Shown: one piece after another, positions 22,858-37,223 of the stretch
Layout: the number at the start of each line of letters is the position of its first letter
Numbering within the stretch: the stretch's first letter is position 1
Assembly: GCA_002753615.1 (NCBI GenBank)
Contig: PEAO01000018.1
Location: forward strand, 1 to 37,223
DNA length: 37,223 bases
Direction of reading: 5' to 3'
Source of the DNA: Magnetococcales bacterium DCbin2
Lineage (GTDB): Bacteria > Pseudomonadota > Magnetococcia > Magnetococcales > UBA8363
Notes under the pieces: model-generated
Seen by the model: only the letters and a program-made list of their open reading frames with translations
What the model was told of the DNA's origin: nothing
Databases searched by the model: none
Position numbers and translations under genes: made by a program

Positions 22858-24942
22858 TTGGCTGCAATTCCCATGTCCTTAAGGCGGATCAAAGGTCTCA
22901 GCGACCTTCTGATGGCTGGCGGCATCATCGTAGTCTTGATGGTCATGATCATACCATTGCCGCCCATGGTGCTGGATCTGTTTCTTTCCGTCAACATTTC
23001 CATGGGAATCGTCATACTTCTGACGACCGTTTATATCCACAAGCCCTTGGAGTTTTCATCGTTTCCAAGCATCTTGCTCATCACCACCATGTTTCGCCTC
23101 GCCCTCAACATCGCCACCACCCGGTTGATTCTGCTGCACGGTTCCAATGGAGAGGCGGCAGCGGGTGAGGTGATCCGCTCCTTTGGCCAGTTTGTCGTCG
23201 GCGGCAACACTGTGGTCGGGGTCATTATCTTCACCATTCTCGTCATTATCAACTTTGTGGTCATCACCAAAGGTGCCGGGCGCATCGCCGAAGTCGCGGC
23301 CCGTTTTACCTTGGATAAAATGCCGGGTAAACAGATGGCGGTCGATGCCGATTTAAACTCCGGGTTGATCTCGGAATCGGAGGCCAAAGCACGCCGTCGG
23401 GAAATTGAATCGGAATCGGAATTCTTCGGGGCCATGGATGGTGCTTCCAAGTTTGTCCGCGGAGACGCCGTCGCGGGAATCATCATCACGCTCATCAATA
23501 TCGTCGGTGGTTTCGTCATCGGTATCGTCTCCCAGGGGATGACTGCGGCGGAAGCGGCCCATGTCTATACCCTCCTGACGGTAGGCGATGGTTTGGTCAA
23601 CCAAATCCCGGCATTGGTCATCTCCACAGCCGCCGGTTTTCTGGTCACCCGCGCCTCCACCGATCAAAATCTAGGGGATCACGTCGGAGGTCAGATCACC
23701 GCCAATCCCAGAGTCATTCTATTGAGTTCCGGGGTATTGGGTCTGTTTGCCATCATTCCCGGAATGCCAACGATTCCGTTTGCGCTGTTGGCCATTCTGC
23801 TGGGTATCAGTGCCTATTTTCTGTTTCAACGACGCGAGGCCAAGGAACAGGCGGTCAGCCGTGAAGAGGCGGTCCATGCCCAGGAAGAATCGCAACAAGA
23901 AGAACCCATCGAATCCTTTCTGGCGTTGGACCTGTTACGGCTGGATGTCGGTTATGGACTCATCTCCCTGGTGGATGAAAGTCAAAACGGAACTTTGCTC
24001 GATAAAATCCGCTCCATCCGCAAACAGTTTGCCGTAGACATGGGTTTTGTCGTCCCACCCATTCACATCAAGGATAACTTGCAGTTTCGGCCTGGGGAGT
24101 ATGCCTTTTACATCAAAGGTGTCGAGGTGGGCCGTGGCGAATTGAAAGCGGGACATTTCCTGGCCATGGAGGGGGGAGCGGTCACCGGACAGATTGAAGG
24201 GACGCCAACCAAGGAGCCTGCCTTTGGACTTCCGGCGATCTGGATCACCGCCCATGATCGGGAACGGGCAGAAATGTTGGGCTACACGGTGGTAGACGCC
24301 TCGACGGTGCTGGCAACCCATATTACCGAGCTGATACACGGCCATGCCCATGAAATGCTCAACCGTCAGGAAGTACAAACCTTGTTGGATATGGTATCCA
24401 AAACCCAGCCTAAGTTGGTGGATGAGTTGATTCCCAACGTGCTGAATCTGGGCGGGGTGCAGAAAGTACTTCAAGGATTGCTGCGGGAACGGGTATCGAT
24501 TCGGGATATGACGACAATCCTGGAAACTATGGCCGATTTTGCCAAAGTGGTCAAACAACCGCAGCAATTGGTGGAATTGGTTCGGCAATCGCTGTCGCGT
24601 TCGTTGGTGACCCGTTACCTGGAAGAAGATGGCTCGCTGAGGGCGTTGGTCTTGGGGGCGGATGCGGAAAACATGATCAATGAGGCGATCGTGGATGGCG
24701 AATATGGATCGTATCTTTCACTGGCTCCCAGGTCGGCGGGTTTGTTTTTAAACCAGTTGCGTAGCCAGGTGGAAAAAGTGGCAACACAGGTGGTACAACC
24801 GGTCATCATCACGGGAGCGCGTGCGCGTCCCTTCGTCAAGCAGGCCACGGAACCGACTATTCCTCACTTGGTGGTGTTATCTCAAAATGAAATTCCCTCC
24901 AATATACAGATTTACTCATTGGGGACAGTGGCTTTTTCCTGA
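22858..24942 (+). CDS. flhA: Flagellar type III export protein FlhA
   Basis: The large membrane component of the flagellar export gate, 694 residues, of normal length. The N-terminal half has about eight helices with the family signatures FSSFPSILLITTMFRLALNIATTRLIL, FVVITKGAGRIAEVAARFTLDKMPGKQMAVDADL and GAMDGASKFVRGDAVAGIIITLINIVGG. The C-terminal half is the cytosolic substrate- and chaperone-docking ring (LLDMVSKTQPKLVDELIPNVL, IRDMTTILETMADF). The start is TTG at 22858, supported by GGAGG seven bases upstream; an ATG at 22873 is the alternative. It is the first gene of the flagellar operon. Confidence 0.96.
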   Translation: MAAIPMSLRRIKGLSDLLMAGGIIVVLMVMIIPLPPMVLDLFLSVNISMGIVILLTTVYIHKPLEFSSFPSILLITTMFRLALNIATTRLILLHGSNGEAAAGEVIRSFGQFVVGGNTVVGVIIFTILVIINFVVITKGAGRIAEVAARFTLDKMPGKQMAVDADLNSGLISESEAKARRREIESESEFFGAMDGASKFVRGDAVAGIIITLINIVGGFVIGIVSQGMTAAEAAHVYTLLTVGDGLVNQIPALVISTAAGFLVTRASTDQNLGDHVGGQITANPRVILLSSGVLGLFAIIPGMPTIPFALLAILLGISAYFLFQRREAKEQAVSREEAVHAQEESQQEEPIESFLALDLLRLDVGYGLISLVDESQNGTLLDKIRSIRKQFAVDMGFVVPPIHIKDNLQFRPGEYAFYIKGVEVGRGELKAGHFLAMEGGAVTGQIEGTPTKEPAFGLPAIWITAHDRERAEMLGYTVVDASTVLATHITELIHGHAHEMLNRQEVQTLLDMVSKTQPKLVDELIPNVLNLGGVQKVLQGLLRERVSIRDMTTILETMADFAKVVKQPQQLVELVRQSLSRSLVTRYLEEDGSLRALVLGADAENMINEAIVDGEYGSYLSLAPRSAGLFLNQLRSQVEKVATQVVQPVIITGARARPFVKQATEPTIPHLVVLSQNEIPSNIQIYSLGTVAFS

Positions 24943-24977
24943 ACCAGAATAAATAATTCAACGAAAACGGAACAACA

Positions 24978-26168
24978 ATGAAAATATCGACCTTTAAAGC
25001 GCGGGATATGCGCGAGGCCTTGAACATGGTCAAGGAAGCCTTGGGAGAGGATGCGGTGATTCTTTCCACGCGCAGCGTCCGGGATAAGGTCAAAGGAGGT
25101 TCCGCCCTGGGGGAAACCTTTATCGAGGTGACCGCCTGCCCCCACTCGGCGCAAGGAGGGAGCGTTGAACCGGGATCCCGGCCCCAAAATGTGCCGCAGC
25201 CAGGCCGGTTTTCGGCTGTGGTGGATGATCAGGTGGAAATTCCCATGTCCAAAGGACGGTTGCCGGAAGGCTATGCCCAAAACACACGGGCCGCAAAAGC
25301 GGGTGGTAAAGCGAGTGTGGATGTCCACAGCATCAAGGAAGGGTTACGGAGCTTGGATCGGGGAGAACCGTCGGTCCCCATGGGGATGGGATCGGATGAG
25401 GTGGCGGGATTGGATCCCGAAAGCAAGCGTAATTATAGTTGGTTGTTGATGCATGGCGTCGAAGAACCCATTGCACGCAAAATCATCGTCAGTTCCAAAG
25501 AGTCGGGCAACAGTATGGAAAATGCCCTCAAGGTTGGATTGCAGTTTCGTGATCCGTTGAGCGGCAAAGCCCGTGTCGTGGCTTTGGTGGGACCGACGGG
25601 GGTGGGAAAAACCACCACTCTGGCGAAAATTGCCGCCGATCTGATGTTAAACCGGCAAAGATCGGTGGGCATGGTGACGCTGGATACCTTTCGTGTGGGT
25701 GCCGTCGCCCAGTTAGAGACCTACGCCAAATTGCTCCAAGTCCGTTTGGTGGTGGCCCGTTCGCTTTCGGAGGTCAAGGCGGGACTCCATTCCTTGAACC
25801 GATGTGACTTTGTTTTGGTCGATACGGTCGGTTCCAGCCCCTATAATCGGCGTCAGGTCAATTCCACGGCGGGGCTGTTGCCGGTGATGGGGGATGATCG
25901 TGAGGTGATCTTGTGCATGTCGGCCAATGTGAGAGAATCGGAACAACATGCCATTCATCGCCGTTTTTCCGTTCTCAACCCCACCGGATTGATCTTCACC
26001 AAGCTCGACGAAACGGTAACCTACGGTGGTATTCTCAACGTAGCGATGAAATCGGGGTTGGCATTGACGATGTACACGGATGGCCAAAGAGTTCCAGAAA
26101 ATCTGGGATGGATGTCGCCAAAAACGTTGGCAACATGGTTTACCCGGGAACAAAATATGATGGAATAA
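24978..26168 (+). CDS. flhF: Flagellar placement GTPase FlhF
   Basis: An SRP-type GTPase that fixes the place, and with FlhG the number, of polar flagella. The N-terminus MKISTFKARDMREALNMVKEALGEDAVILSTR is typical. A variable linker follows, then the NG domain from about residue 150 with P-loop VALVGPTGVGKTTTLAKIAADL, VTLDTFRVGAVAQLETYAK, VLVDTVGSSPYN and TGLIFTKLDETVTYGGILNV. The third motif reads DTVG where DTAG is more usual in SRP GTPases. It sits 35 bp after flhA and directly before flhG. Confidence 0.95.
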   Translation: MKISTFKARDMREALNMVKEALGEDAVILSTRSVRDKVKGGSALGETFIEVTACPHSAQGGSVEPGSRPQNVPQPGRFSAVVDDQVEIPMSKGRLPEGYAQNTRAAKAGGKASVDVHSIKEGLRSLDRGEPSVPMGMGSDEVAGLDPESKRNYSWLLMHGVEEPIARKIIVSSKESGNSMENALKVGLQFRDPLSGKARVVALVGPTGVGKTTTLAKIAADLMLNRQRSVGMVTLDTFRVGAVAQLETYAKLLQVRLVVARSLSEVKAGLHSLNRCDFVLVDTVGSSPYNRRQVNSTAGLLPVMGDDREVILCMSANVRESEQHAIHRRFSVLNPTGLIFTKLDETVTYGGILNVAMKSGLALTMYTDGQRVPENLGWMSPKTLATWFTREQNMME

Positions 26169-26240
26169 GGGTGTACCCGGATCGAGTCAAAAACATCGGG
26201 TTTGAAAAAAATGAGTGCCAACGGCGAAGGGTGCATTCTT

Positions 26241-27179
26241 ATGGAAGAAATGGACAACCAGGTAGCGACACTGCAAGAACTGGCGAGGAAGAAAAAAACA
26301 GGTTCCCGGCAAGGCGGTCCGTCCAAACGGACCTCCCTGGATCGTGCCCCATCGGAGCGCAAGGTGCCACATACGTTGGCGGTGACGAGTGGCAAAGGGG
26401 GGGTCGGTAAAACATTGGTGACGGTCAATTTGGCGATTCAATACGCCCGGCAGGGTTTCAAAGTATTGATTATCGATGCCGACATGGGGTTGGCCAATAT
26501 TGATGTGGTGTTGCGTCTGTCACCCAAACACACCATTCAGGATGTGTTGATCGGAGAGATGACCTTGGATGAGGTGGCGGTGCCAGGTCCGTTTGGGATC
26601 ACGGTGTTGCCAGCGGCATCGGGGGTGGCGGAGTTGAGTACGCTGACCGAACAGCAAAAATTATCGTTGATGGACCATATTGACAACTGGAACGCCGAAT
26701 TTGATGTCGTGTTGGTAGACACGGGGGCAGGAATATCGTCCAATGTCCGCTTCTTTGTCCTGGCGGTCGAACGGATCATGGTCGTCGCCACCCCGGATCC
26801 GGCGAGTATCGCCGATGCGTATGCATTGATGAAGGTCATGTTCAACACCCATCGGGTGACGCAGTTTGATCTGGTGGTCAATCAGGTTCGGACCGCCAGC
26901 GAAGCCAAGGAGGTCTATCGGAGGATTTCATCGGTTGCGGCGACGCATCTTAACATTGGCCTGACATTTGCAGGATATATTCCATATGACCCGTTGTTAG
27001 CCCAGTCGGTACGCAATGGAGAGCAGGTATCGGAACGATTTCCAGAAGCACCGGCCTCACAGTCGTTCAAGGAACTTTCCGAAAGCATCAACCGTCTCTG
27101 GCAGCGGCAACGTCATGATGACGGACGGATGGTATTTTTCTGGCGCCGGTTGCTCAACGAAGGGCGTCGGCAACAATAA
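26241..27179 (+). CDS. flhG: MinD-like ATPase FlhG (FleN), flagellar number regulator
   Basis: A MinD/ParA-type ATPase that limits flagellar number by antagonising FlhF. The deviant Walker A reads TSGKGGVGKTLVTVNLA, followed by IDADMGLANIDVVL, VLVDTGAGISSNVRFF and VVATPDPASIADAYALMKV. It has 312 residues from ATG 26241, which has AAGGG nine bases upstream; frames from TTG 26202 or ATG 26211 would add up to 13 residues. The N-terminal segment QVATLQELARKK fits the DQA.LR motif that stimulates FlhF in this family. It lies between flhF and fliA. Confidence 0.94.
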   Translation: MEEMDNQVATLQELARKKKTGSRQGGPSKRTSLDRAPSERKVPHTLAVTSGKGGVGKTLVTVNLAIQYARQGFKVLIIDADMGLANIDVVLRLSPKHTIQDVLIGEMTLDEVAVPGPFGITVLPAASGVAELSTLTEQQKLSLMDHIDNWNAEFDVVLVDTGAGISSNVRFFVLAVERIMVVATPDPASIADAYALMKVMFNTHRVTQFDLVVNQVRTASEAKEVYRRISSVAATHLNIGLTFAGYIPYDPLLAQSVRNGEQVSERFPEAPASQSFKELSESINRLWQRQRHDDGRMVFFWRRLLNEGRRQQ

Positions 27180-27203
27180 TTGATAATCTCAAGGAAACCA
27201 CCT

Positions 27204-27974
27204 ATGGCCATGCCCACAATGGATGCCGGCCGCATCAGGGAGAATGTGGAATCTTGGGAGGGGATGTCCCGGGACGACGTGATCATCAAATATGCTCCGA
27301 TGGTCAAATATGTCGCCAGCCGGATTTCCATGAAACTTCCGCAGTCGGTAGATTTGGATGATTTGATTCAGGTTGGCGTATTGGGACTGATCGATGCGGT
27401 AGCCAAATTCGATCCCAACCGAGGGATCAAGTTTCAGACTTATGCCGAGTTTCGGGTTCGCGGCGCGATTTTGGATGAATTACGCGCCATGGATTGGGTT
27501 CCCCGTGCCGTGCGCCAAGTATCGGGACATATTCAATCGGTCTACCAACAACTGGAAGGAAAGTTGGGGCGTCCTGCCGAAGACGGTGAAGTTGCGCAAT
27601 CGTTGGGGATCACGCTGAATGAATTTTATCAGCAACTTGATTCTGTCCGGGGAATATCGATATTGTCTTTCGAGGACATTCGGCCATCCTTGGAGGATGA
27701 TGAGTGGGACATCCTGGACGTATTGGCGGATCCTGATGTTGAAGATCCGTTGGAATCGATTGGCTTGCAGGAGATGCGTTTGGCGATGAGTGAGGCCATC
27801 GAGAGTTTGCCGGAAAAAGAGCGTTTGGTATTGACGCTGTATTATTATGAAGAATTGACTATGTGTGAAATTGGTGAGGCGTTAGGTTTGACAGAATCGC
27901 GGATCTCTCAACTTCATTCAAAAGCGGCACTCCGAATGCGGGCAAAGATGCGTCGCGTGACCGGTAAGAAATAG
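27204..27974 (+). CDS. fliA: Flagellar RNA polymerase sigma factor FliA (sigma-28)
   Basis: The alternative sigma factor for late flagellar genes, 256 residues. Region 2 reads SVDLDDLIQVGVLGLIDAVAKFDPNRGIKFQTYAEFRVRGAILDELR, then MDWVPRAVRQ, characteristic of sigma-28. Region 3 reads LGRPAEDGEVAQSLGI and region 4 reads LPEKERLVLTLYYYEELTMCEIGEALGLTESRISQLHSKA. The start at 27204 has AAGGA eight bases upstream; TTG at 27180 is less likely. No anti-sigma gene flgM is visible in the window. Confidence 0.95.
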   Translation: MAMPTMDAGRIRENVESWEGMSRDDVIIKYAPMVKYVASRISMKLPQSVDLDDLIQVGVLGLIDAVAKFDPNRGIKFQTYAEFRVRGAILDELRAMDWVPRAVRQVSGHIQSVYQQLEGKLGRPAEDGEVAQSLGITLNEFYQQLDSVRGISILSFEDIRPSLEDDEWDILDVLADPDVEDPLESIGLQEMRLAMSEAIESLPEKERLVLTLYYYEELTMCEIGEALGLTESRISQLHSKAALRMRAKMRRVTGKK

Positions 27975-27976
27975 CC

Positions 27977-28501
27977 ATGACTGTTTGGAACCTTCTGGTT
28001 ATCTTGTGTTTTTTCGTCATCTATCTGGGCATTGCCGTGATCTTCAGGCAATTGCGCGGGATACGTGAGGAAATGGTGCGACTGACCAGGGAGGTGGCCT
28101 CCCGGGGTCAGGATACGGATGATGATGATGGCAATGACCGCAATGACCGGGCGATTTTTGAATTGCGTAGCCGTTTGCAGCAACTGGGGACGGAAATGTT
28201 GGAGGCCATGGAGGCCCTTCCCAAGGTGATGCGCAACGATCTGGATGGGATTGTGGGAGAAATTCGGATGTTGCAACGTTCCATTGGCCCCATGGGGATG
28301 AACATGGGGATGGGAGTGGGAATGGGGGGGGTGCGCGATGCCAAAGATGAGGAATCTTTCAAGGCCAATGCCTATCATGAGGCACGATTGTTGTTGGCCA
28401 ATGGGGTGGATGAGGATCGGGTGATTGCAGAGACGGGGTTGACAGTCGAAGAGGTGAGCCTGTTGAAGCGGATGGGCAGCAAGGTGACGGAAGAGGTATG
28501 A
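27977..28501 (+). CDS. DUF2802-like flagellar operon protein
   Basis: A 174-residue protein starting 2 bp after fliA. It has one N-terminal transmembrane helix (LLVILCFFVIYLGIAVIF), a predicted coiled-coil region with an acidic patch (DTDDDDGNDRNDR), and a C-terminal segment YHEARLLLANGVDEDRVIAETGLTVEEVSLLKRM. The last matches the helix-turn-helix-like core of DUF2802 proteins that commonly follow fliA or motility genes. Between the two regions is an unusual glycine-methionine tract (GPMGMNMGMGVGMGGV, about residues 114-129). Function is unknown. Confidence 0.7.
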   Translation: MTVWNLLVILCFFVIYLGIAVIFRQLRGIREEMVRLTREVASRGQDTDDDDGNDRNDRAIFELRSRLQQLGTEMLEAMEALPKVMRNDLDGIVGEIRMLQRSIGPMGMNMGMGVGMGGVRDAKDEESFKANAYHEARLLLANGVDEDRVIAETGLTVEEVSLLKRMGSKVTEEV

Positions 28502-28570
28502 TGGGGTGAATATTCCAGGTTTTTTTTGAATCAAAAGCGGAGCATGTTTTTTTTGTTTACAGTCAAAACC

Positions 28571-28605
28571 CTGGGGGCAATCCCCCAGACCCCTTTTTTC
28601 TTTTA
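28571..28605 (+). terminator. Rho-independent terminator in the flagellar cluster
   Basis: CTGGGGG (28571-28577) and CCCCCAG (28582-28588) form a 7-bp stem with loop CAAT. ACCCC and then a T-rich tract follow. It lies after the DUF2802-like gene and before the fliK-like gene. The same T-rich tail (TTCTTTTAATATTT) opens the window at positions 1-14, so this may be a recurring terminator in the genome. Confidence 0.75.
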
Positions 28606-28674
28606 ATATTTCTAGATTTTTATTTTTCCAGTTGGTACCCAGAAGGTTCCACCTTCAGCCATGGACAAAACCCC

Positions 28675-29805
28675 ATGTTGATATCTGGAAATTTTGTCCA
28701 ATCCGTTGCCAAGGGGGAGGCAAAACCAAGTTCCGGTGGTATTCAACTCACCGAAGGGGCGATCCTCAGTGGCCGTATCGGTCAGGTCAACAGTCGCGGA
28801 GAAGGGGTGCTGCGCCTAGCGGACGGAAGCCGTTTTTCCTTTTCCGGGGGGCAGGCACTCAAGGAAGGGGAACAAGTCCGCATGGAGGTCGTCCGCCTCC
28901 AACCTCAGATCACCTTGCGCATGATTGCCAGTGAATCGGGCATCGCCCAACAGATGGCGGGAGACATGGAACAAAGTCTCATGCGTCTGCCCGATATTTT
29001 TTCCCGTCTGATGAACTTTTCCGGACTGGATGGGGGGATGGCTGCGGCATCGGGCAAGGGGGAAGGGTTATTTTCCCTGTTCTCCGCCATTCAACAAGCG
29101 GGCAAGTCTCCCCTGTTTGTCACCAGCAAAGGTGAAAGCATGGCGGCGGTATTGCGTCGCATTTTGCCCAATTTATCCTTGGAGTCACTACAGAAAGGTG
29201 ATTTAACCGAACTGACCCGTTTGCTGCGTAGCGGCGGTGGTGAGATCAAGGAGATGTTGCAACAATTGCGGGAAGCGGCCAATGATTTGCGACCCGCACC
29301 TGGCACCGGTGGGGGGGATCAGGATATTGGCGCAGCCCGACAAACTTTGATGCGTGTGGGTGATCTTTTGGCGATGCAGGATGTGTTGCCGCGCACGGCG
29401 ACGGGGCCGGATGGGAATCCTTTTTTAGGATACCGACTGTTTTGGTTGGATGAACGCGGCTTGGGAGAGATGATCTGGCGTCAACAATCGGGTGGGGGGT
29501 CCGGTCGCGGTGGGGATGACGAAAAAGAGGTCACGTCGGTTCTCATCACCTTGAATCTGACCCAGTTGGGGACATTGCAGACACATTTATCCTATGCCCA
29601 AAATGCGTTGCAGATTGCCATGGGTGCTGAGGACGACGAAGCGTTATCGGCCTTGCGGGGAGATATACGGCAATTGCGTCAGGCGTTGATCGCGGCGGAG
29701 TTACCGTTGCGTTCTCTGGAACTCTCCAAAATGTCCCGAGGGGATGTTCAGGAGAAACGGCTGGAAATATTAGCGTTGGGTGAAGGATTTTCCATCGAGG
29801 TGTGA
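28675..29805 (+). CDS. Flagellar hook-length control protein FliK-like
   Basis: A 376-residue protein whose C-terminal 90 residues have the shape of the FliK C-terminal domain. A strand with LITLNLTQLGTLQTHLSYAQNALQIAMGAEDDEALSALRGDIRQLRQALIAAELPLRSLELS fits the 'LxLPELG.v.v......L.....L...LR..L...G' pattern. The N-terminal part has an OB-like stretch (EGAILSGRIGQVNSRGEGVLRLADG) and glycine-rich linkers, consistent with a secreted molecular ruler. The position between fliA and an flhB-like gene supports this, since FliK and FlhB act together in switching export specificity. No strong ribosome binding site is visible before 28675. Confidence 0.72.
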   Translation: MLISGNFVQSVAKGEAKPSSGGIQLTEGAILSGRIGQVNSRGEGVLRLADGSRFSFSGGQALKEGEQVRMEVVRLQPQITLRMIASESGIAQQMAGDMEQSLMRLPDIFSRLMNFSGLDGGMAAASGKGEGLFSLFSAIQQAGKSPLFVTSKGESMAAVLRRILPNLSLESLQKGDLTELTRLLRSGGGEIKEMLQQLREAANDLRPAPGTGGGDQDIGAARQTLMRVGDLLAMQDVLPRTATGPDGNPFLGYRLFWLDERGLGEMIWRQQSGGGSGRGGDDEKEVTSVLITLNLTQLGTLQTHLSYAQNALQIAMGAEDDEALSALRGDIRQLRQALIAAELPLRSLELSKMSRGDVQEKRLEILALGEGFSIEV

Positions 29806-30212: not shown

Positions 30213-31394
30213 TTGAGCAAGGCATCGTCTGATTCTTCAGAAATCACACCCGGACTAGGTAAAGAACCAGAAAGAGATCCTGGGAAGTATTGGCTAAAGC
30301 GGTTATTTTTTATATTGACTGGCACCTTTGCATTTTTAGTCTCACTGGCTGAACTCATTGAGAAATGGCCTGTATTGAGGGGATTTTTTATTGATCCAAT
30401 AAGATCTTGGACCGATCTCTTGTGGCCATCCTGGCTGGATTGGCTATCAGACATGGAGCATATTTCGCCGCATGACACAGAAAATTTTACCATATGGCAC
30501 CTTCTTCTTATTACATCTATCATATCTTCTATTATTATTTTAATTAATATCATCCGGTCACTCTCGAAGGAATTGGGTGGCAAAGCGGGGAAAATGGACA
30601 CATCCGCAGTATTGTATTTGCTTAATCCTGTAATGTACTATACCGTATTGCAAAAGATTCATGAATTTCAACACGATGTATCCAGAACTTTACTCAACAT
30701 TCACTACGGCAAAATATCGTTGGAGGATCCATCATTCCGCGAGAAAGTCAGGGAATTATTGTTCGTCTGTGGCGATATTGCACAAACTTTGATCGGAAGG
30801 CCAGTGTCCGTTAATATCAAACTTTTCAGCCTAAAGAATGATGATAACAGCTCATCGCTCTTCAAGGGAAAGTTATCCGAAGCCAAACTCAAGACCTTTG
30901 TCAGAGCCCCTTCAAAGGCAGAATATGAAGACTGCATGCGGAATGGTGAAAGTAGGCGTAACATAGAAGAATTTGAGATCGTCTTAGGTGCTGACAACAA
31001 ACCAGAACTATTAAAAAAAAGATATCCCGACAAATCGGACGCCGCCCGGGTCAATACGGCCTACAACCAAGTTCTTGGACCAAGAGATCATTTTTGGGTC
31101 AACAATAATTTGGTTGAAGCAGAAAAAGAATCGCATTTTTGGAGCAACAGCCTTGATTGGCGTAAATACTATAAAAGCATGGCAGTTTTTATAATTGCTC
31201 AGAATATCCCTCAAGGAGAACCCGTAGGGAAAACCCACAGGGCCATGGGGATTCTTATTTTTGATTCGCCCGCAACAGGCCGTTTTTCACGCAGACTAGC
31301 TGCGATTGTCTTGGGATATTTGGCGCATCGTTTGCATTCAGTATTTCGTCAAGCCGCCAAGATCCCGTCCGATTCTATAGAAACCAAGGAATGA
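30213..31394 (+). CDS. Two-helix membrane protein with GAF-like C-terminal region
   Basis: A 393-residue protein of unknown function. Two transmembrane helices (about residues 30-48 and 93-112) flank a short loop of about 45 residues. The C-terminal 260 residues are soluble. The last part (SMAVFIIAQNIPQGEPVGKTHRAMGILIFDSPATGRFSRRLAAIVLGYLAHRLHSVFRQ) resembles the closing strand and helix of a GAF sensor domain. The start is TTG with AAGG seven bases upstream, because no ATG precedes the first helix. It lies between the flagellar and magnetosome genes, and nothing ties it to either. It is more AT-rich than both. Confidence 0.6.
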   Translation: MSKASSDSSEITPGLGKEPERDPGKYWLKRLFFILTGTFAFLVSLAELIEKWPVLRGFFIDPIRSWTDLLWPSWLDWLSDMEHISPHDTENFTIWHLLLITSIISSIIILINIIRSLSKELGGKAGKMDTSAVLYLLNPVMYYTVLQKIHEFQHDVSRTLLNIHYGKISLEDPSFREKVRELLFVCGDIAQTLIGRPVSVNIKLFSLKNDDNSSSLFKGKLSEAKLKTFVRAPSKAEYEDCMRNGESRRNIEEFEIVLGADNKPELLKKRYPDKSDAARVNTAYNQVLGPRDHFWVNNNLVEAEKESHFWSNSLDWRKYYKSMAVFIIAQNIPQGEPVGKTHRAMGILIFDSPATGRFSRRLAAIVLGYLAHRLHSVFRQAAKIPSDSIETKE

Positions 31395-31761: not shown

Positions 31762-32280
31762 TCAAATCGGAATTTCAACAACAATGTCATGACATTTGAT
31801 GCATCGACCCGATGGGGGATGATGGCGGGTGGAATCGGGCAAAATGGGTGGGCCAACCTTCTTGAACATCGAAGCCTTCTCCCACGCCTTGCCCACCGGC
31901 GTAATCGGCTGACTCCCTGGAGGGGCACCCCCGATGATTAAATGACACTTGGTACACGGACCCCAGTAGGAATGCGGAATACGCGCACTCCTCGGAATTT
32001 GCGGAATCATCTTAACCACAATTTTCCGCGTTTTCTTCGGCGCGACAATATCCAACACCGGCTTGTCCATGGAGGGTTCCGTCGGTGCCGGCATGGAACC
32101 AAAAATCTCCCCCTTGAGTTGCCGCGATACCTTCTCCGTCGTCATCCAATCCCGAAAAAGATTATGAAACCAGGATCCATAACGCTCCTTGGCCACCAAA
32201 CCCGCCACCACAAGCACCAAAACAACCATGCCGCCCGAAAAGAGACGACGACCAAGCTCAACTTTGGTGGGTCTTTTCAT
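31762..32280 (-). CDS. mamT: Magnetosome protein MamT (two magnetochrome domains)
   Basis: A 172-residue magnetosome membrane c-type cytochrome. One helix (about residues 13-30) is followed by KERYGSWFHNLFRDWMTTEKVSRQLKGEIFGS, close to known MamT sequences. Two CXXCH haem sites then follow: CTKCH (C109, C112, H113) and CIKCH (C160, C163, H164), each in the magnetochrome setting 'PHxYWGxCxxCH' or 'HPPSGRCIKCH'. In magnetotactic bacteria MamT helps set iron redox balance during magnetite crystal growth. It starts 2 bp after mamS and ends the cluster, as in other mamAB operons. Confidence 0.92.
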   Translation of the reverse strand: MKRPTKVELGRRLFSGGMVVLVLVVAGLVAKERYGSWFHNLFRDWMTTEKVSRQLKGEIFGSMPAPTEPSMDKPVLDIVAPKKTRKIVVKMIPQIPRSARIPHSYWGPCTKCHLIIGGAPPGSQPITPVGKAWEKASMFKKVGPPILPDSTRHHPPSGRCIKCHDIVVEIPI

Positions 32281-32282
32281 CG

Positions 32283-32894
32283 CTACCGCAACTTATTGGA
32301 CCAAAGGGCAAACCCTTCATCATTTCGCAAGTGGCAAATACGACCACCGACCTCCATTTTTTTGGCATAAACCAAGGCATCCCGATTCTTGCGGTCAAAA
32401 CGAAAACCCATCCCCGAAATCACACTGTCGTGTGTCAATGGACAACTGATCAGCTTCAAATACCAATTGGGAGCCACCGAAATTTGCATCTCACCTCCCG
32501 CAGGATCATGAACCCAAACATGCACCTGACCATCGTTCTGGATGACCTCGGTAATCTGCTGCACCTGACCATAAAACGACACCCTCGGTGCCTGTTCAAA
32601 GTTCAGTACCCCACCCGGTTGCGGCACCGGGCGATCGGCAATCGCCGTGTTGGGTGCCGCGACAGGGATGGCCGTAGGGAGTGAACCGGTCCACAGACTT
32701 TGCTGATCAAACGCCCCACCCACCGGACCCTGCATGGCCACGGATACAACTTGGTTGCCACCCTGCGTCTGCGGCGATCCGATCACGCCAACGTTTTCCC
32801 CAACCGCCCAAAAGCCCTCTGGCATGACCGCAGCCGCCACAATACCCAAGACCACCACCACCGCGACCAATCCCAACCCTTCTTCGGCTTTCAT
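32283..32894 (-). CDS. mamS: Magnetosome protein MamS
   Basis: A 203-residue protein with an N-terminal helix (LGLVAVVVVLGIVAAAVMPEGFWAV), a variable linker, and a conserved C-terminal domain (FYGQVQQITEVIQNDGQVHVWVHDPAGGEMQISVAPNWYLKLISCPL..SGMGFRFDR). This matches the shared domain of MamS and MamX. It lacks CXXCH motifs, which favours MamS over MamX, and the order mamB-mamS-mamT is the canonical one. MamS affects crystal size and shape. The start at 32894 has GGAGG upstream; frames from 32909 or 32945 would lengthen it and overlap mamB slightly. Confidence 0.85.
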   Translation of the reverse strand: MKAEEGLGLVAVVVVLGIVAAAVMPEGFWAVGENVGVIGSPQTQGGNQVVSVAMQGPVGGAFDQQSLWTGSLPTAIPVAAPNTAIADRPVPQPGGVLNFEQAPRVSFYGQVQQITEVIQNDGQVHVWVHDPAGGEMQISVAPNWYLKLISCPLTHDSVISGMGFRFDRKNRDALVYAKKMEVGGRICHLRNDEGFALWSNKLR

Positions 32895-32931
32895 GGACCC
32901 CTCCGCCATGATCGATTCCAATAATAGACCA

Positions 32932-33810
32932 TCACGCCGCCTCATAAGGGGTCAAAAAGACATACACCCGACCAACATGGTCCACAGAGCTGATAATTCG
33001 CTCCTTCAAGACATCGACGATCACATCCCCTTCATACACATACAACGAGCCATCGACTTCGACACTGAGTTCCACATGCAATTCATCCCCAATGGTTCGG
33101 GCACGCATGTAGGAAATCCCCAAAACCCCGGCAACATTACGCACCACATTATAGATCTCACGCAACTCCTCCACCTCCGGTGATGAATCCATGAGACCAT
33201 TGATGGAACTCTTGATCAGTTCCAAACCAATATGAATAATCACCAAGGCGACCCCCGCCGCCGCCAACGGGTCTGCAATAGGAAACCCAAAAATAGCCAA
33301 TCCAATGCCGATCAACACCGCAATGGAAGAGATGGCATCCGAACGGTTATCCCAGGCATTGGCAATGATCGCCGGACTGTTGTTTTCTTTTCCCACACAG
33401 CTTTGATAATGATACATCAGCTCATTGGCAATGATCGACATCCCCGCACCCAACAAGGCGATGGATGAAGGGGCAGCATAATCCCCGCTGATGATCGACC
33501 TGACCGCGCCGATGATGATGAACGCCGCCCCCGTCAGGAGAATGAAACCCACAACGGCAGACGAAATGTACTGAATATTGCCATGTCCGTAAGCATGGTC
33601 CTCATCCGCCGGTTTACCGGAGATTTTCATGCTGATCATGGTCACGGTCGAAGCAATCACATCCGCCGACGAATGAAAGGCATCCGCAAACAAAGCCGAA
33701 CACCCGCTGAACATGGCCAAGGATCCCTTGAAAAATATCATGAAAACATTCATGGAAAATGCATACCAGACCACCTGATACCGGCATTCGGGGCAGTGGG
33801 GATACTTCAT
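32932..33810 (-). CDS. mamB: Magnetosome cation diffusion facilitator MamB
   Basis: The 292-residue CDF transporter needed for magnetosome vesicle formation and, by inference, iron entry. Recognition rests on strong resemblance along the whole length to known MamB: the N-terminal CPEC pair, KGSLAMFSGCSALFADAFHSSADV (site in helix 2 with D43, H46, D50), KPADEDHAYGHGNIQYISS, NELMYHYQSCVGKENNSPAIIANAWDNRSDAISS, and GLMDSSPEVEEL. The NAWDNRSD motif (D154, D158) carries aspartate where ordinary CDF proteins have histidine. A C-terminal regulatory domain (about 210-292) follows. It overlaps mamQ by ATGA. Confidence 0.96.
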   Translation of the reverse strand: MKYPHCPECRYQVVWYAFSMNVFMIFFKGSLAMFSGCSALFADAFHSSADVIASTVTMISMKISGKPADEDHAYGHGNIQYISSAVVGFILLTGAAFIIIGAVRSIISGDYAAPSSIALLGAGMSIIANELMYHYQSCVGKENNSPAIIANAWDNRSDAISSIAVLIGIGLAIFGFPIADPLAAAGVALVIIHIGLELIKSSINGLMDSSPEVEELREIYNVVRNVAGVLGISYMRARTIGDELHVELSVEVDGSLYVYEGDVIVDVLKERIISSVDHVGRVYVFLTPYEAA

Positions 33811-34760
33811 GGTGCCGTCACCCCCTTGTCGGTAGACGGTTTCCCAACATCGCCAACACCCCCATCGACCCCGCTCGGCCCGGAAACGACCGGTGGTGTC
33901 ACCGCCACACCGCCCGCCGGGGGCGAGGGCTGATGGTCGGGATCCAGCGGCAACAAACGTTTGAACAACGTGGAGGTCAGGTCTGGGAGCATCAATTTCT
34001 CATCCTGGGATAAATGTTCCATCGTGAAATAATCATACCGCTTGAAACCGGTGATATTGGCAAGAATATACCAGGGAAATGAGGTGATGATGGTATTATA
34101 GACGCGCACCTCCTCATTAAAGGTATCCCGACGCTGAATGATACGGTCTTCAATCTCCACCAACTTGTCCATCAACTGTTGATACGTCGTTGACGATTTA
34201 ATTTCTGGATATTGTTCCACAACCGCCATCAGTTTGGCCATGGATGACGGTCCATCCATACCCGCCAAGGTCTCCGCAAGACCCGTCCCCTTGGCGTCGG
34301 TACCTTCTCCTGGCACCGCCCCAGGTGTCGTTGTTGCGACCTCGCTGTTCCCCGTATCACGCCCCGTCATGGCGGCACGAACATTCGCAACATGCCGAAA
34401 AACCTCCTGTTCCAACGCCGCCTGATTCAACGTCAGGTTGATTAAGTTGGTAAACAGATTGGCACGCCTTTGGATAGCGTCCTGAATATACCCCTGGGCT
34501 GACAGAATCCGTTCTTCAAGTGTGATGAAAATATTGAAATTATACAGCGTCGTAATGCCAAACGCGAGCATGGAGACAAAAGAGAGGAATAGAATCAGCC
34601 CCTTAACCTTGATCGGCGGAACCCGCAGACGTTGGGTTTCCGACTCATCCTTATACAGTTGACCCAACAGCCGCCGCATCCGCCGCATCCGTTCGGAATT
34701 GCTCGTTTCCGGTCCCAGGCCGTTCAACTGTTCCAATGGGTCTTCTCTACGCTCGGCCAC
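33807..34760 (-). CDS. mamQ: Magnetosome protein MamQ (LemA family)
   Basis: A 317-residue LemA-type protein required for magnetosome membrane formation. A cytoplasmic N-terminus of about 50 residues precedes one helix (KGLILFLSFVSMLAFGITTLYNF). The LemA helical bundle follows with ILSAQGYIQDAIQRRANLFTNLINLTLNQAALEQEVFRHVANVRAAM, STTYQQLMDKLVEIEDRIIQRRDTFNEEVRVYNTIITSFPWYILANITGF. A low-complexity insertion (about residues 136-165) and a proline/glycine-rich tail (last 40 residues) are longer than I recall in the alphaproteobacterial proteins. The start is GTG at 34760 with only a weak ribosome binding site. It overlaps mamB by 4 bp. Confidence 0.92.
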   Translation of the reverse strand: MAERREDPLEQLNGLGPETSNSERMRRMRRLLGQLYKDESETQRLRVPPIKVKGLILFLSFVSMLAFGITTLYNFNIFITLEERILSAQGYIQDAIQRRANLFTNLINLTLNQAALEQEVFRHVANVRAAMTGRDTGNSEVATTTPGAVPGEGTDAKGTGLAETLAGMDGPSSMAKLMAVVEQYPEIKSSTTYQQLMDKLVEIEDRIIQRRDTFNEEVRVYNTIITSFPWYILANITGFKRYDYFTMEHLSQDEKLMLPDLTSTLFKRLLPLDPDHQPSPPAGGVAVTPPVVSGPSGVDGGVGDVGKPSTDKGVTAP

Positions 34761-34827: not shown

Positions 34828-37203
34828 TCAGTCCAGCGCAATCGCATCATCCTCCATGTCCCCTTTGGCGTCGGCCACCCGCAAATAGTGCGCCGCCTCC
34901 TGGCTTTTTCCCGCCATCTGCAAACAATAACCCAATGCCCGACTGTATTCCACCCTGCCCGGATCCAACGCCACCGCCTCCTTATAGACAGCGACCGCCT
35001 CCTCAGATCGGTTGAGATGATCCAGCACCCCCGCCAGACGAAACAGCAACGCCGCCCGATCCGAAGAACCCAAACCACCACCTTCCAAACTTTTTTGAAT
35101 CATCGCCAAAGCCAGATCATACTGTCTGGTGCCAATATAGGCTACGATCAAATCCTCGTCCAGCCATCCCCCCCCAGAACCTGCCTGTTTTCTGGCTTTT
35201 TCCAAAAATCCCAACGCCCGTGCCGAATCGCCCAGTTTGAGATAACACCGCCCCAACGCCGACAAGATCGAAACATCCTGGCCATAACTTCTCAAAGCTT
35301 TACGATAATGGAATACGGCATCATGGAACATTCCCCGTTGATAGAACCGTTTTCCGCGATCCGCATGATAATGGCCCGTGAATGATCCTCCCAGAGAAAC
35401 CACCTGGACATATTTCCTGACCGCTGTTTCGGACAACCGACCCAACCAGTTTACAACCGTATGTACCACAAAATACCATTCATCCAACACCCGGACCTGG
35501 GCAACCGCCTTGGGTGGTCGGGTAAACCGGACGGGGCTTGCATCAGCACCCAACAGTTCCTGGTCGTACATATCCACATGAAATGTCTCCGGTAATGATC
35601 GAACCGCAAAGCCTCCTCCAGCAGGGGCGGGTTCCCTGACCTCCTCGGAGGGGACCACAGGATCCAAGATTTCCATCTCAGTCGATTCAGGGACCGAAAC
35701 ACCCGCATCCACAACAGAAATTTCTTCGATCTCATCTGAGGGCAACGGATCCGCGCAAGTGACCACCGGTGCCGCAACAACCTCCTCCACGACAGAAATT
35801 TCTTCGATCTCATCTGGGGGCAATGGATCCGCGCAAGTGATCACCGGCCCCGCAGCAACCTCCTCCGCGACCCATCCCTGTTCCAAATCGTTAACCAACA
35901 CCTCTTCCACGACTTCATACTCAGATACCTCTGCCGGGTCGGTGATCCATGGCTCTTCCGCAACACCACCCACAGTTTCGTCGTCCACCGCCGTTTCCAA
36001 CACCTCTTCCACATCCTGAGCGGTCAATGCGTCTCCCTCATCGGCACCCACAATTTCTTGCACCGCAGCATCACCCCGATCCTTTTCGACAATATCTATC
36101 GGTAATAGAGCATCTTTTTCAACATCGGCACCCACCCATGGAGAAGCCAAACGCTCAGCCCCCAAAATCAGGCCCGGTACCTCCACTCCCCCTTCCTCCT
36201 CCATCACCTGGCGTTGTTGCCTGAAATCGTCCAAAAGACGCCGCAACGTGTCTCTTTGTCCCGCTTCGGGTGCGCAAACTTCCAAATCGACCGCCAGCGT
36301 TTCTTCCAGCTCTGGCTCTGGCCCCGTCTGCGCATCCAACGAAGATTCAACAGTCTCGGCATCCACCGTGAACGAATCCACACCTGCCCAATAATCTGTG
36401 GACAACACCGTCCCGTCATCCGACCGGGAAGCGGTTTCTTGAGCGATACCGCGAGATTGGCCAAGGGACGCCAACAACCTGACCACCGCATCCCGATCAG
36501 AAGCCCCCGTCCGCACCGCCAACGGTCGCATCGAAGCCGTCGCCGCCACCACCGTCCCGACCGGATCGATTTTACGACGTTCCGGCGACCTTGCAACCAG
36601 TGCCACCGGGGCAGAATCTTCGCCATATTCCTGCCACTGCGTCATCTCGCGCCGACGCAACATTGCGTTAAAAATCTCCAATGGAGTCGGCTCTGCATCG
36701 ATATTCCTGCGCCGGACGGGCATTTCCGATGAATCGCCCCCATCGGTCGCAACCAATCCCACCCCTGGATCGAATCCCCAGCGGTTCTCCGAGGAGATAA
36801 AACGGGTCTCCTTTTCCTGGTGCCGCATGGGATACCCCGTGTTCTCATCCAACGGGGGTCTACTGTAATCAGGAGTCGATAACCGCACCGCCAATCCATC
36901 CTGCGGCGACACCGGGGCATCATCCAGGTCCAACCCAATGTCGGGGTCGGCACGCGGTACGTCGTCCTCCCCCAAAGCCATCAGCGATGGTAAAATATGG
37001 AACGCAGTGTCCGCTGCACCGGCGGGTATTTCCGGCCCTGCCAATTCATCCTCAAGGACGGCATCCGATGTCTGGAAATCCTCATCTTCCGGTTCTGGGG
37101 CGACCCAATCGTCGGCCTCTGTCGGAGCAATCGGGGATTCCCTGGCCAAAATAGCCTGGCGTTTCATCATGGTCGCATTGATCATGCTGTCCATGCGACT
37201 CAT
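34828..37203 (-). CDS. mamA: MamA-type TPR protein with long acidic N-terminal extension
   Basis: The C-terminal 219 residues (about 573-791) have the length and repeat layout of MamA, the TPR scaffold that coats magnetosomes. They contain DRGKRFYQRGMFHDAVFHYRKAL, LGRCYLKLGDSARALGFLEKARK, VAYIGTRQYDLALAMIQKSLE, RLAGVLDHLNRSEEAVAVYKEAVALDPGRVEYSRALGYCLQMAGKSQEA. Its place directly before mamQ is that of mamA. Residues 1-572 are acidic, low in complexity, rich in E, D, V and P, without membrane helices, and contain a 26-residue tandem repeat. This part has the character of MamJ, which links magnetosomes to the MamK filament, but the match is in style only. The first visible ATG (37203) lacks a ribosome binding site and the frame is open to the window edge, so the true start may lie outside. 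Confidence 0.8.
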   Translation of the reverse strand: MSRMDSMINATMMKRQAILARESPIAPTEADDWVAPEPEDEDFQTSDAVLEDELAGPEIPAGAADTAFHILPSLMALGEDDVPRADPDIGLDLDDAPVSPQDGLAVRLSTPDYSRPPLDENTGYPMRHQEKETRFISSENRWGFDPGVGLVATDGGDSSEMPVRRRNIDAEPTPLEIFNAMLRRREMTQWQEYGEDSAPVALVARSPERRKIDPVGTVVAATASMRPLAVRTGASDRDAVVRLLASLGQSRGIAQETASRSDDGTVLSTDYWAGVDSFTVDAETVESSLDAQTGPEPELEETLAVDLEVCAPEAGQRDTLRRLLDDFRQQRQVMEEEGGVEVPGLILGAERLASPWVGADVEKDALLPIDIVEKDRGDAAVQEIVGADEGDALTAQDVEEVLETAVDDETVGGVAEEPWITDPAEVSEYEVVEEVLVNDLEQGWVAEEVAAGPVITCADPLPPDEIEEISVVEEVVAAPVVTCADPLPSDEIEEISVVDAGVSVPESTEMEILDPVVPSEEVREPAPAGGGFAVRSLPETFHVDMYDQELLGADASPVRFTRPPKAVAQVRVLDEWYFVVHTVVNWLGRLSETAVRKYVQVVSLGGSFTGHYHADRGKRFYQRGMFHDAVFHYRKALRSYGQDVSILSALGRCYLKLGDSARALGFLEKARKQAGSGGGWLDEDLIVAYIGTRQYDLALAMIQKSLEGGGLGSSDRAALLFRLAGVLDHLNRSEEAVAVYKEAVALDPGRVEYSRALGYCLQMAGKSQEAAHYLRVADAKGDMEDDAIALD
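35711..35866 (-). repeat. Two-copy 78-bp tandem repeat in the acidic region of the mamA-like gene
   Basis: 35711-35788 and 35789-35866 are nearly identical by eye, with a few substitutions. Each encodes 26 residues of the form VVEEV.A.PV.TCADPLP.DEIEEIS. Being in frame and of whole-codon length, the unit can expand or contract without breaking the gene. Confidence 0.85.
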
Positions 37204-37223
37204 CCGGGCTTGCCAAAGACTTT

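Follow-up and report, generated by a model that had tools for sequence, protein, structure and literature searches.

The contig end described here raises the question of what a gene does whose product joins a MamA-type TPR domain to a long, acidic, MamJ-like arm. The window, i.e., the whole analyzed stretch of 37,223 nucleotides from Magnetococcales bacterium DCbin2, is contig C18 of a 3.36-Mb genome in 201 contigs, 78% complete (G000). The preliminary description had taken the gene for a fusion of MamA with a MamJ-like region and suggested that such a protein could explain the lack of mamJ in cocci. Here we consider the gene, its arm, its distribution, and the evidence for mamJ in the same genomes.

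A long MamA-type gene next to mamQ

In the window, the long gene is followed by mamQ, mamB, mamS, and mamT, all on the minus strand:

34828..37221, minus strand: long MamA-type gene, open frame of 797 aa, 5' end cut by the contig
33807..34760, minus strand: mamQ (251.2 bits, cut-off 250), 67 bp downstream of the long gene
32932..33810, minus strand: mamB (410.6 bits, cut-off 350)
32283..32945, minus strand: mamS (187.2 bits, just below the cut-off of 200)
31762..32280, minus strand: mamT (198.0 bits, just below the cut-off of 200), magnetochrome domain
34861..35493, minus strand: C-terminal MamA-type TPR domain of the long protein, residues 571-781 (NCBIfam, AlphaFold, fold search)

Counted from its ATG, the long frame (34828-37203, minus strand) encodes 791 aa; it stays open up to 37221 at the contig end, which cuts the 5' part of the gene, and has 797 aa over this full extent. 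The long protein of the closest relative, G004, has 798 aa. Since its start lies 17 residues ahead of the window ATG, the complete window protein would probably have ~808 aa, with ~11 residues missing beyond the contig end. Elsewhere in the window, a 393-aa frame without a Pfam or NCBIfam match at E<=0.01 adjoins mamT (30213-31394), and flagellar genes (FlhA, FlhF, MinD-like, FliK) lie near the magnetosome genes (22858-29805). A plasmid search gave no match.

A sequencing or assembly error that merged two genes would be a trivial explanation of such a protein, as the contig stops within the gene and repeats break this assembly. However, G004 contains the same single frame, with 83% identity over its whole length, and orthologous frames of 649-1106 aa are intact in 13 other genomes from three families (f1, the genus of the window, f9, and f12). 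The dN/dS values for the window and G004 copies, 0.39 for the arm and 0.32 for the TPR part, indicate that both halves are under purifying selection. A frameshift joining two genes, a concern voiced in the preliminary description, is thus ruled out, and the chance of an artefactual merger is practically nil.

The repeats themselves include a palindrome with the core CCCTGGGGGCAATCCCCCAGACCCC, present in 265 copies in the genome at up to two mismatches (0 for the reversed control). Its copies are often found at contig ends, and they flank mamO-mamP-mamA:

window, 28569-28593: palindromic repeat copy
L039, 1-59 and 3521-3717: palindromic repeat copies
L040, 57-109 and 3561-3767: palindromic repeat copies

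In the same genome, mamO-mamP-mamA are oriented opposite to mamE-mamK and to a CDF gene that would be mamM by its position; a repeat copy separates the two groups (L039:99-8942). This orientation results either from inversion at the repeats or from an assembly error.

Residues 575-775 of the long protein match the NCBIfam MamA model (NF040959) at model positions 2-197 of 204, scoring 81.5 bits vs the cut-off of 200. AlphaFold predicts TPR-domain helices at residues 571-781, with pLDDT mostly near 90 for residues 607-781 and about 60 for the first helix (571-602), which corresponds to the extra N-terminal helix of MamA and is kept in the long protein. In the fold search, MamA accounts for 22 of the 26 best matches among solved structures, and the remaining four are TPR proteins, designed or other; by sequence alone, designed consensus TPR proteins outscore MamA (best E 7.8e-29 vs 4.3e-12). 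Hence, as proposed in the preliminary description, a complete MamA-type TPR module indeed stands behind a long acidic repeat-bearing arm.

The notion of a fused MamA itself did not survive. In the equivalog test, the long protein shows a TPR fold covering nearly the full model, with a score below the cut-off, a length different from the ~217 aa of MamA, and a place other than that of mamA in the order mamP-mamA-mamQ. The source genome encodes a separate, normal MamA of 220 residues on contig C116. In G004, mamO and mamP (both assigned by position) are followed by mamA (220 aa), long gene, mamQ, mamB, mamS, and mamT, i.e., the normal mamA occupies the place after mamP, ahead of the long gene. 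The short MamA of G004 passes the NF040959 cut-off (201.7 vs 200 bits). This cut-off is strict for cocci, because the short MamA of G018 scores only 186.2 bits. Among the long proteins elsewhere, one from an f9 genome reaches 155.1 bits with the same model, and the 1029-aa frame between mamA and mamQ in G018 ends in a MamA-type domain with 64.1 bits. Since the normal MamA is a separate gene, we regard the long protein, judging from its sequence, as a MamA paralogue and not as MamA itself; the normal copy on C116 rules out that it is the only MamA of the genome. The preliminary description had also stated that its reading would fail if all MamA proteins of Magnetococcales were of normal length. 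This applies in half: the examined MamA proteins are of normal length, and the long protein is encoded by an additional gene.

The acidic arm

The following features were assigned to the arm:

35494..37203, minus strand: acidic, mostly disordered arm, residues 1-570 (composition, AlphaFold)
37138..37221, minus strand: conserved N-terminal helix region SLWQARMSRMDSMINATMMKRQ... (pattern W..R[ML].R[MT]D.[ML], AlphaFold)
36625..36684, minus strand: predicted short helix, residues 174-193; the motif PTP[LM]E[LI]F (residues 172-178), seen throughout the genus, extends into it
36463..36504, minus strand: predicted short helix, residues 234-247 (ASDRDAVVRLLASL), low confidence (pLDDT about 40)
36196..36264, minus strand: predicted short helix, residues 314-336, including RRLLDDFRQQRQ (AlphaFold)
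35710..35865, minus strand: acidic repeat, two tandem copies 26 residues apart (self-comparison vs shuffles)

In the 797-aa frame, the arm comprises 574 aa with 21.8% D+E and 7.3% K+R, a net charge of -83, and pI 4.05. Its low pI, tandem repeat, and disorder (pLDDT about 30) are typical of the acidic region of MamJ, and four proteins from the mamJ position, of which two were verified with the MamJ model, have pI 4.05-4.24. Thus, the MamJ-like composition noted in the preliminary description is confirmed for the genus of the window; arms from f9 are far less acidic. The pI ranges are 4.05-4.78 in f1, 4.36-5.26 in f12, and 4.67-6.01 in f9 (four full-length arms); for the f12 frames L089 and L090, the measurement covered the entire stop-to-stop frame, and so their arms may include residues ahead of the true start.

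At a spacing of 26 residues, the window repeat has 20 of 24 identical positions, and none of 20 shuffles has more than 10. In 10 of the 15 arms, tandem repeats are stronger than in any of the 20 shuffles. The remaining five arms show no repeat beyond the shuffle level; therefore, tandem repeats are not a feature of all members. The repeat units differ between lineages, as exemplified by the VQEVES/VQEVEP array in G018 and the TEPAQELV array in G029.

The AlphaFold prediction, for which 11 of the 15 long proteins were used as sequences, has a mean pLDDT of 49, and the arm is near 30 outside short helices. For the predicted helices 2-22, 174-193, and 314-336, ten-residue block means are mostly 50-75, and two weaker helices (234-247 and 283-289) have pLDDT about 40. 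The mean identity to the window protein in these five helices is 0.39 vs 0.20 in the rest of the arm (five of the seven f1 proteins used), and 11 of 569 circular shifts reach 0.39. The single helices have identities of 0.60, 0.36, 0.32, 0.07, and 0.36, with 0.60 for the N-terminal helix and 0.07 for residues 283-289.

The pattern of the N-terminal helix, W..R[ML].R[MT]D.[ML], which was derived from the long proteins themselves, occurs in 20 of 14,549 frames, every one of them a long protein. After merging of duplicates, it is present in six of seven f1 proteins and in all five f9 genomes, the other nine matches being duplicate contigs; it was not found in the f12 long proteins. A single pattern suggests a shared origin of the helix in f1 and f9, but the f1-only and f9-only HMMs do not find each other significantly, and this candidate was not retained. 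Similarly, the profile of the fourth helix has the other three main helices as its three best other hits in the window arm. However, the best other hit is above the 95% shuffle level in only two of four proteins (four of the seven f1 proteins used), and therefore we do not claim that the four main helices are copies of one docking motif.

Distribution of the long gene and of the MamJ-type signature

Based on profile matches in 48 Magnetococcales genomes and reading of the mamA-mamQ interval, the long gene is present in 15 of them: seven of eight in f1, five of five in f9, and three of three in f12. Its place is beside mamA, in most cases within the mamA-mamQ interval. In 14 cases the MamA-type domain is recognized by HMM. 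The fifteenth protein, from G025 (f12), has a weak MamA match (E 0.005) and was recognized mainly by position; it matches the G018 long protein with E 0.003 over 45 residues. In 25 genomes the mamA and mamQ matches end within 300 bp of each other, and these were counted as lacking the long gene; eight genomes, with genes missing or on different contigs, were not judged. The neighborhood of the long gene is split over contigs in the source genome and in G032. In the non-Magnetococcales loci with both genes, the mamA-mamQ distance is at most 470 bp, except for L185 from Zetaproteobacterium PCbin4, where four frames occupy 5.3 kb.

Several clusters deviate from the common arrangement. In G002 (DCbin4), mamQ is missing after the long gene and mamB comes next. 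Additional short mamA genes (C119 and C28) and mamQ genes (C28 and C1), two of each, occur elsewhere (loci L042, L056, L057, L106); therefore, this genome has more than one magnetosome cluster. In G007, mamA is separated from the long gene by three other genes (355, 832, and 242 aa; L041:9857-14232). A second mamQ occurs elsewhere in the source genome (L100, G000:C145) and in its f1 relatives (L101, L105, L107), with no MamA match within the fetched stretches. The genome of G018 (f12) is a single contig of 4,719,581 bases, a size that we take to agree with that of M. marinus MC-1.

In the phylogenetic tree, the TPR domains of the f1 and f9 long proteins group together (100/100), separate from every short MamA included, and the f12 domains stand apart on very long branches. 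The tree left out the short MamA of 24 listed loci and duplicate contigs of genomes already present, and included one f12 domain (G025) cut by hand. A single clade of all 15 long proteins is not rejected (p-AU 0.43), a weak result given the long branches, and f12 would join the long-protein clade with correspondingly weak support.

The position of the long gene has already been published. The accessible text of PMC3934378 lists 'mamP, mamA, HP, mamQ' for MC-1 and IT-1, and the gene order in G018 agrees with that given there for M. marinus MC-1. The accessible text of PMC6783814 refers to a 'mamA-like gene located inside the mamAB cluster', which UR-1 and its related strains lack; this is perhaps the same gene.

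According to the accessible part of PMC6783814, mamJ was not found in this group. To describe MamJ-type proteins, we built a narrow HMM of the C-terminal signature only, using as seeds the genes that separate mamE from mamK in nine alphaproteobacterial loci; two of the seed genes (L164, L165) were checked against the MamJ model NF040987, and both were confirmed. Among 14,549 frames, 33 beyond the seeds matched this HMM (E 1.6e-9 to 0.032, duplicate contigs included), and most of their loci belong to cocci. Twenty-seven of these frames lie directly upstream of mamK, two are one gene further up, two come from loci without mamK, and two are elsewhere. The narrow HMM did not hit the f9 genes, and its matches in G029 (0.24), G006 (0.33), and G011 (0.66) are not significant.

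A wider alignment, A2, has ten of its 14 rows from Magnetococcales, and hence its matches in cocci are partly by construction; with it, 44 of 48 cocci show the signature, including all 27 good-quality genomes. Outside the order, A2 matches four of 152 genomes (E 6e-4 to 0.007), this number resulting from a phylum draw of 200 genomes that contains the 48 cocci. Among the 46 cocci with mamK, 44 carry the signature; the other two, G000 and G001, are 75-78% complete and have a single mamK each. Examples of the genes matched by the signature HMM are:

L132:3-917, L090:1747-5193, L058:15805-18000, L223:7342-11106, L102:17828-19000, and others: MamJ-signature genes
L219:4017-4343, L222:10093-10413, L221:1771-2226, L228:8877-9224, L057:2067-2405: small MamJ-signature frames

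In cocci, the signature VPVESLGxGIFNALGDMVGGVV occurs in the gene preceding mamK or in the mamE-mamK interval; the small frames (107-152 aa) that also carry it lie beside a second mamK or in a second cluster.

The location of the signature gene depends on the lineage. In f1 it adjoins a second mamK, as in all four f1 genomes with the long gene that are at least 90% complete (G002, G004, G005, G007). In the four f1 main clusters where the mamE-mamK gap was readable, it spans 80-135 bp and contains no gene. In f9 and f12, the long protein coexists with a MamJ-signature gene, which is located in the mamE-mamK interval or immediately ahead of mamK; in the f9 genome G015, the main-cluster gene at the mamJ place is not matched by A2. 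In G018, a 1255-aa frame with the signature is located just downstream of mamE, ~8.6 kb from mamK. In UR-1, the gene directly upstream of mamK, at the place of maq1 in the original paper, carries the signature as well (narrow HMM, E 0.0027). The accessible text of PMC9938234 reports that in another bacterium the gene at this place restores the chain-like arrangement in a mamJ mutant, and that reciprocal blast did not recognize an orthologue of it.

Because 44 of 48 cocci have the signature, and the gene at the maq1 place of UR-1 carries it, both the statement on mamJ in PMC6783814 and the premise that cocci have no mamJ need revision. The suggestion that the long protein explains this lack falls with the premise, as the families carrying the long protein are among those with the signature. 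In the accessible open-licence literature, i.e., outside subscription papers and figures, we found no description of a MamJ signature in cocci.

A candidate adaptor on the magnetosome surface

We propose that the long protein is a second MamA-family protein acting as a magnetosome-surface adaptor, and give this reading an even chance of being correct. It is encoded by a single selected frame, its TPR fold is best matched by solved MamA structures, and it occupies the same place in 15 of 48 genomes; its arm is predicted to be disordered except for short helices, of which the N-terminal one is the most conserved. The arms of f9, which are far less acidic, the f12 proteins lacking the N-terminal pattern, and the five of 15 arms without a repeat fit the proposal less well.

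According to the accessible text of PMC3905215, MamA self-assembles through its N-terminal part, and Arg50 is a salt-bridge arginine. The TPR module of the adaptor could stay on the vesicle by assembling together with the MamA coat or by docking onto it; co-assembly would be the simplest anchor, because the TPR half keeps the extra N-terminal helix and MamA assembles via its N-terminal part. By eye, Arg50 (AMB-1 numbering) seems not kept in most long proteins, nor in the short MamA of f1 and f9. The arm would reach into the cytoplasm, where its N-terminal helix, perhaps together with other helices, would grip a second partner, and the acidic repeats would set reach and spacing and might change freely, like the central repeats of MamJ. 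The conserved first helix argues for one specific partner, and the repeats suggest that sequence is less important in their part of the arm than length and charge. The first candidate for this partner would be the main-cluster MamK, which in f1 has no adjoining MamJ-like gene, followed by the MamA grooves, or it could be another protein. In f9 and f12 a filament linker is not obviously missing, because a MamJ-signature gene lies near mamK.

The known phenotypes provide a thin hint. Strains MC-1 and IT-1, in which the place of the long gene is occupied, form chains (accessible text of PMC10653835 and PMC3934378), whereas UR-1 clusters its magnetosomes (accessible text of PMC6783814), and in its locus L132 mamA adjoins mamQ with no long gene between them. 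These are two lineages that also differ in other genes.

Another scenario is that the acidic arm, with its net charge of -83, binds the basic concave grooves of neighboring MamA molecules and thus crosslinks or regulates the coat, in which case a filament partner would not be required. In G004 and other genomes, the long gene directly adjoins mamA in the same orientation, MamA self-assembles (PMC3905215), and the accessible text of PMC4482739 describes its concave surface as mainly to extremely positive. The lower acidity of the f9 arms and the dedicated conserved N-terminal helix, which suggests a specific partner and not charge alone, make this scenario possible but rather unlikely. High net charge, disorder, and variable repeats are also what would be expected of an arm that spaces vesicles or binds iron by charge and bulk, as a surface brush or a mineral-side acidic protein; given that the short helices are conserved and that no signal peptide or membrane segment taking the arm into the vesicle was noticed by eye, we consider such a role very improbable.

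The long protein is not a member of the MamJ family: it has no match to NF040987 at E<=0.01, no long protein is among the listed matches of the signature HMM (VPVE-[DS]-L..G) in 14,549 frames, and the gene adjoins mamQ in the window and lies between mamA and mamQ in G004, not between mamE and mamK. It could nevertheless substitute for MamJ in f1 by linking magnetosomes to the main-cluster MamK, as four f1 main clusters have no gene between mamE and mamK, and the arm resembles MamJ in its composition and in repeats that differ between lineages. According to the accessible text of PMC10653835, MamK of DCbin4 (G002) restores the magnetic response in the M. gryphiswaldense mamK mutant much like native MamK, and thus it can work with an acidic linker. 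Still, G002, G004, G005, and G007 have a MamJ-signature gene beside the second mamK, and the long protein lacks the signature and is also present in f9 and f12, where MamJ-like genes sit. Such a substitution thus appears quite unlikely.

An extension of the adaptor reading, which we consider speculative and unlikely to hold, is that two tethering systems operate in parallel: the MamJ-signature protein with the second MamK, and the coat-anchored adaptor with the main-cluster MamK. If so, a duplicate of a coat protein would have become a long multivalent arm through the gain of short helical docking motifs and disposable acidic repeats. Whatever its partner, the long coat-type protein is a testable tether candidate in cocci, and the MamJ-signature gene, found in nearly every coccus genome searched and at the maq1 place of UR-1, is the second one. 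Foreign linkers have been tested in M. gryphiswaldense mutants (accessible text of PMC10653835 and PMC9938234).

In comparison with known systems, the published 'HP' between mamA and mamQ (PMC3934378) has the same place as the long gene, and the G018 frame there ends in a MamA-type domain. The accessible 'HP' and 'mamA-like gene' accounts give the position only and describe neither the arm with its repeats and N-terminal helix nor the paralogy. In the open-licence literature, again in its accessible text and outside subscription papers and figures, we likewise found no description of the arm or its N-terminal helix; the helix W..R[ML].R[MT]D, the further short helices, and the lineage-specific acidic repeats are new here. 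The long protein shares with MamA (NF040959; PDB 3AS4, 3ASF, 3VTY, 4XI0) a complete TPR domain with the extra N-terminal helix and a common gene cluster, and MamA is the best-scoring natural family in its fold search. However, MamA has ~220 aa and no arm, whereas the long protein has at least 791 aa, scores 81.5 bits, and is encoded in addition to a separate MamA. With MamJ (NF040987) it shares a long, low-pI, mostly disordered region whose acidic repeats vary between relatives. MamJ differs by its C-terminal signature and its place between mamE and mamK; the long protein, with neither of these, carries a TPR domain instead.
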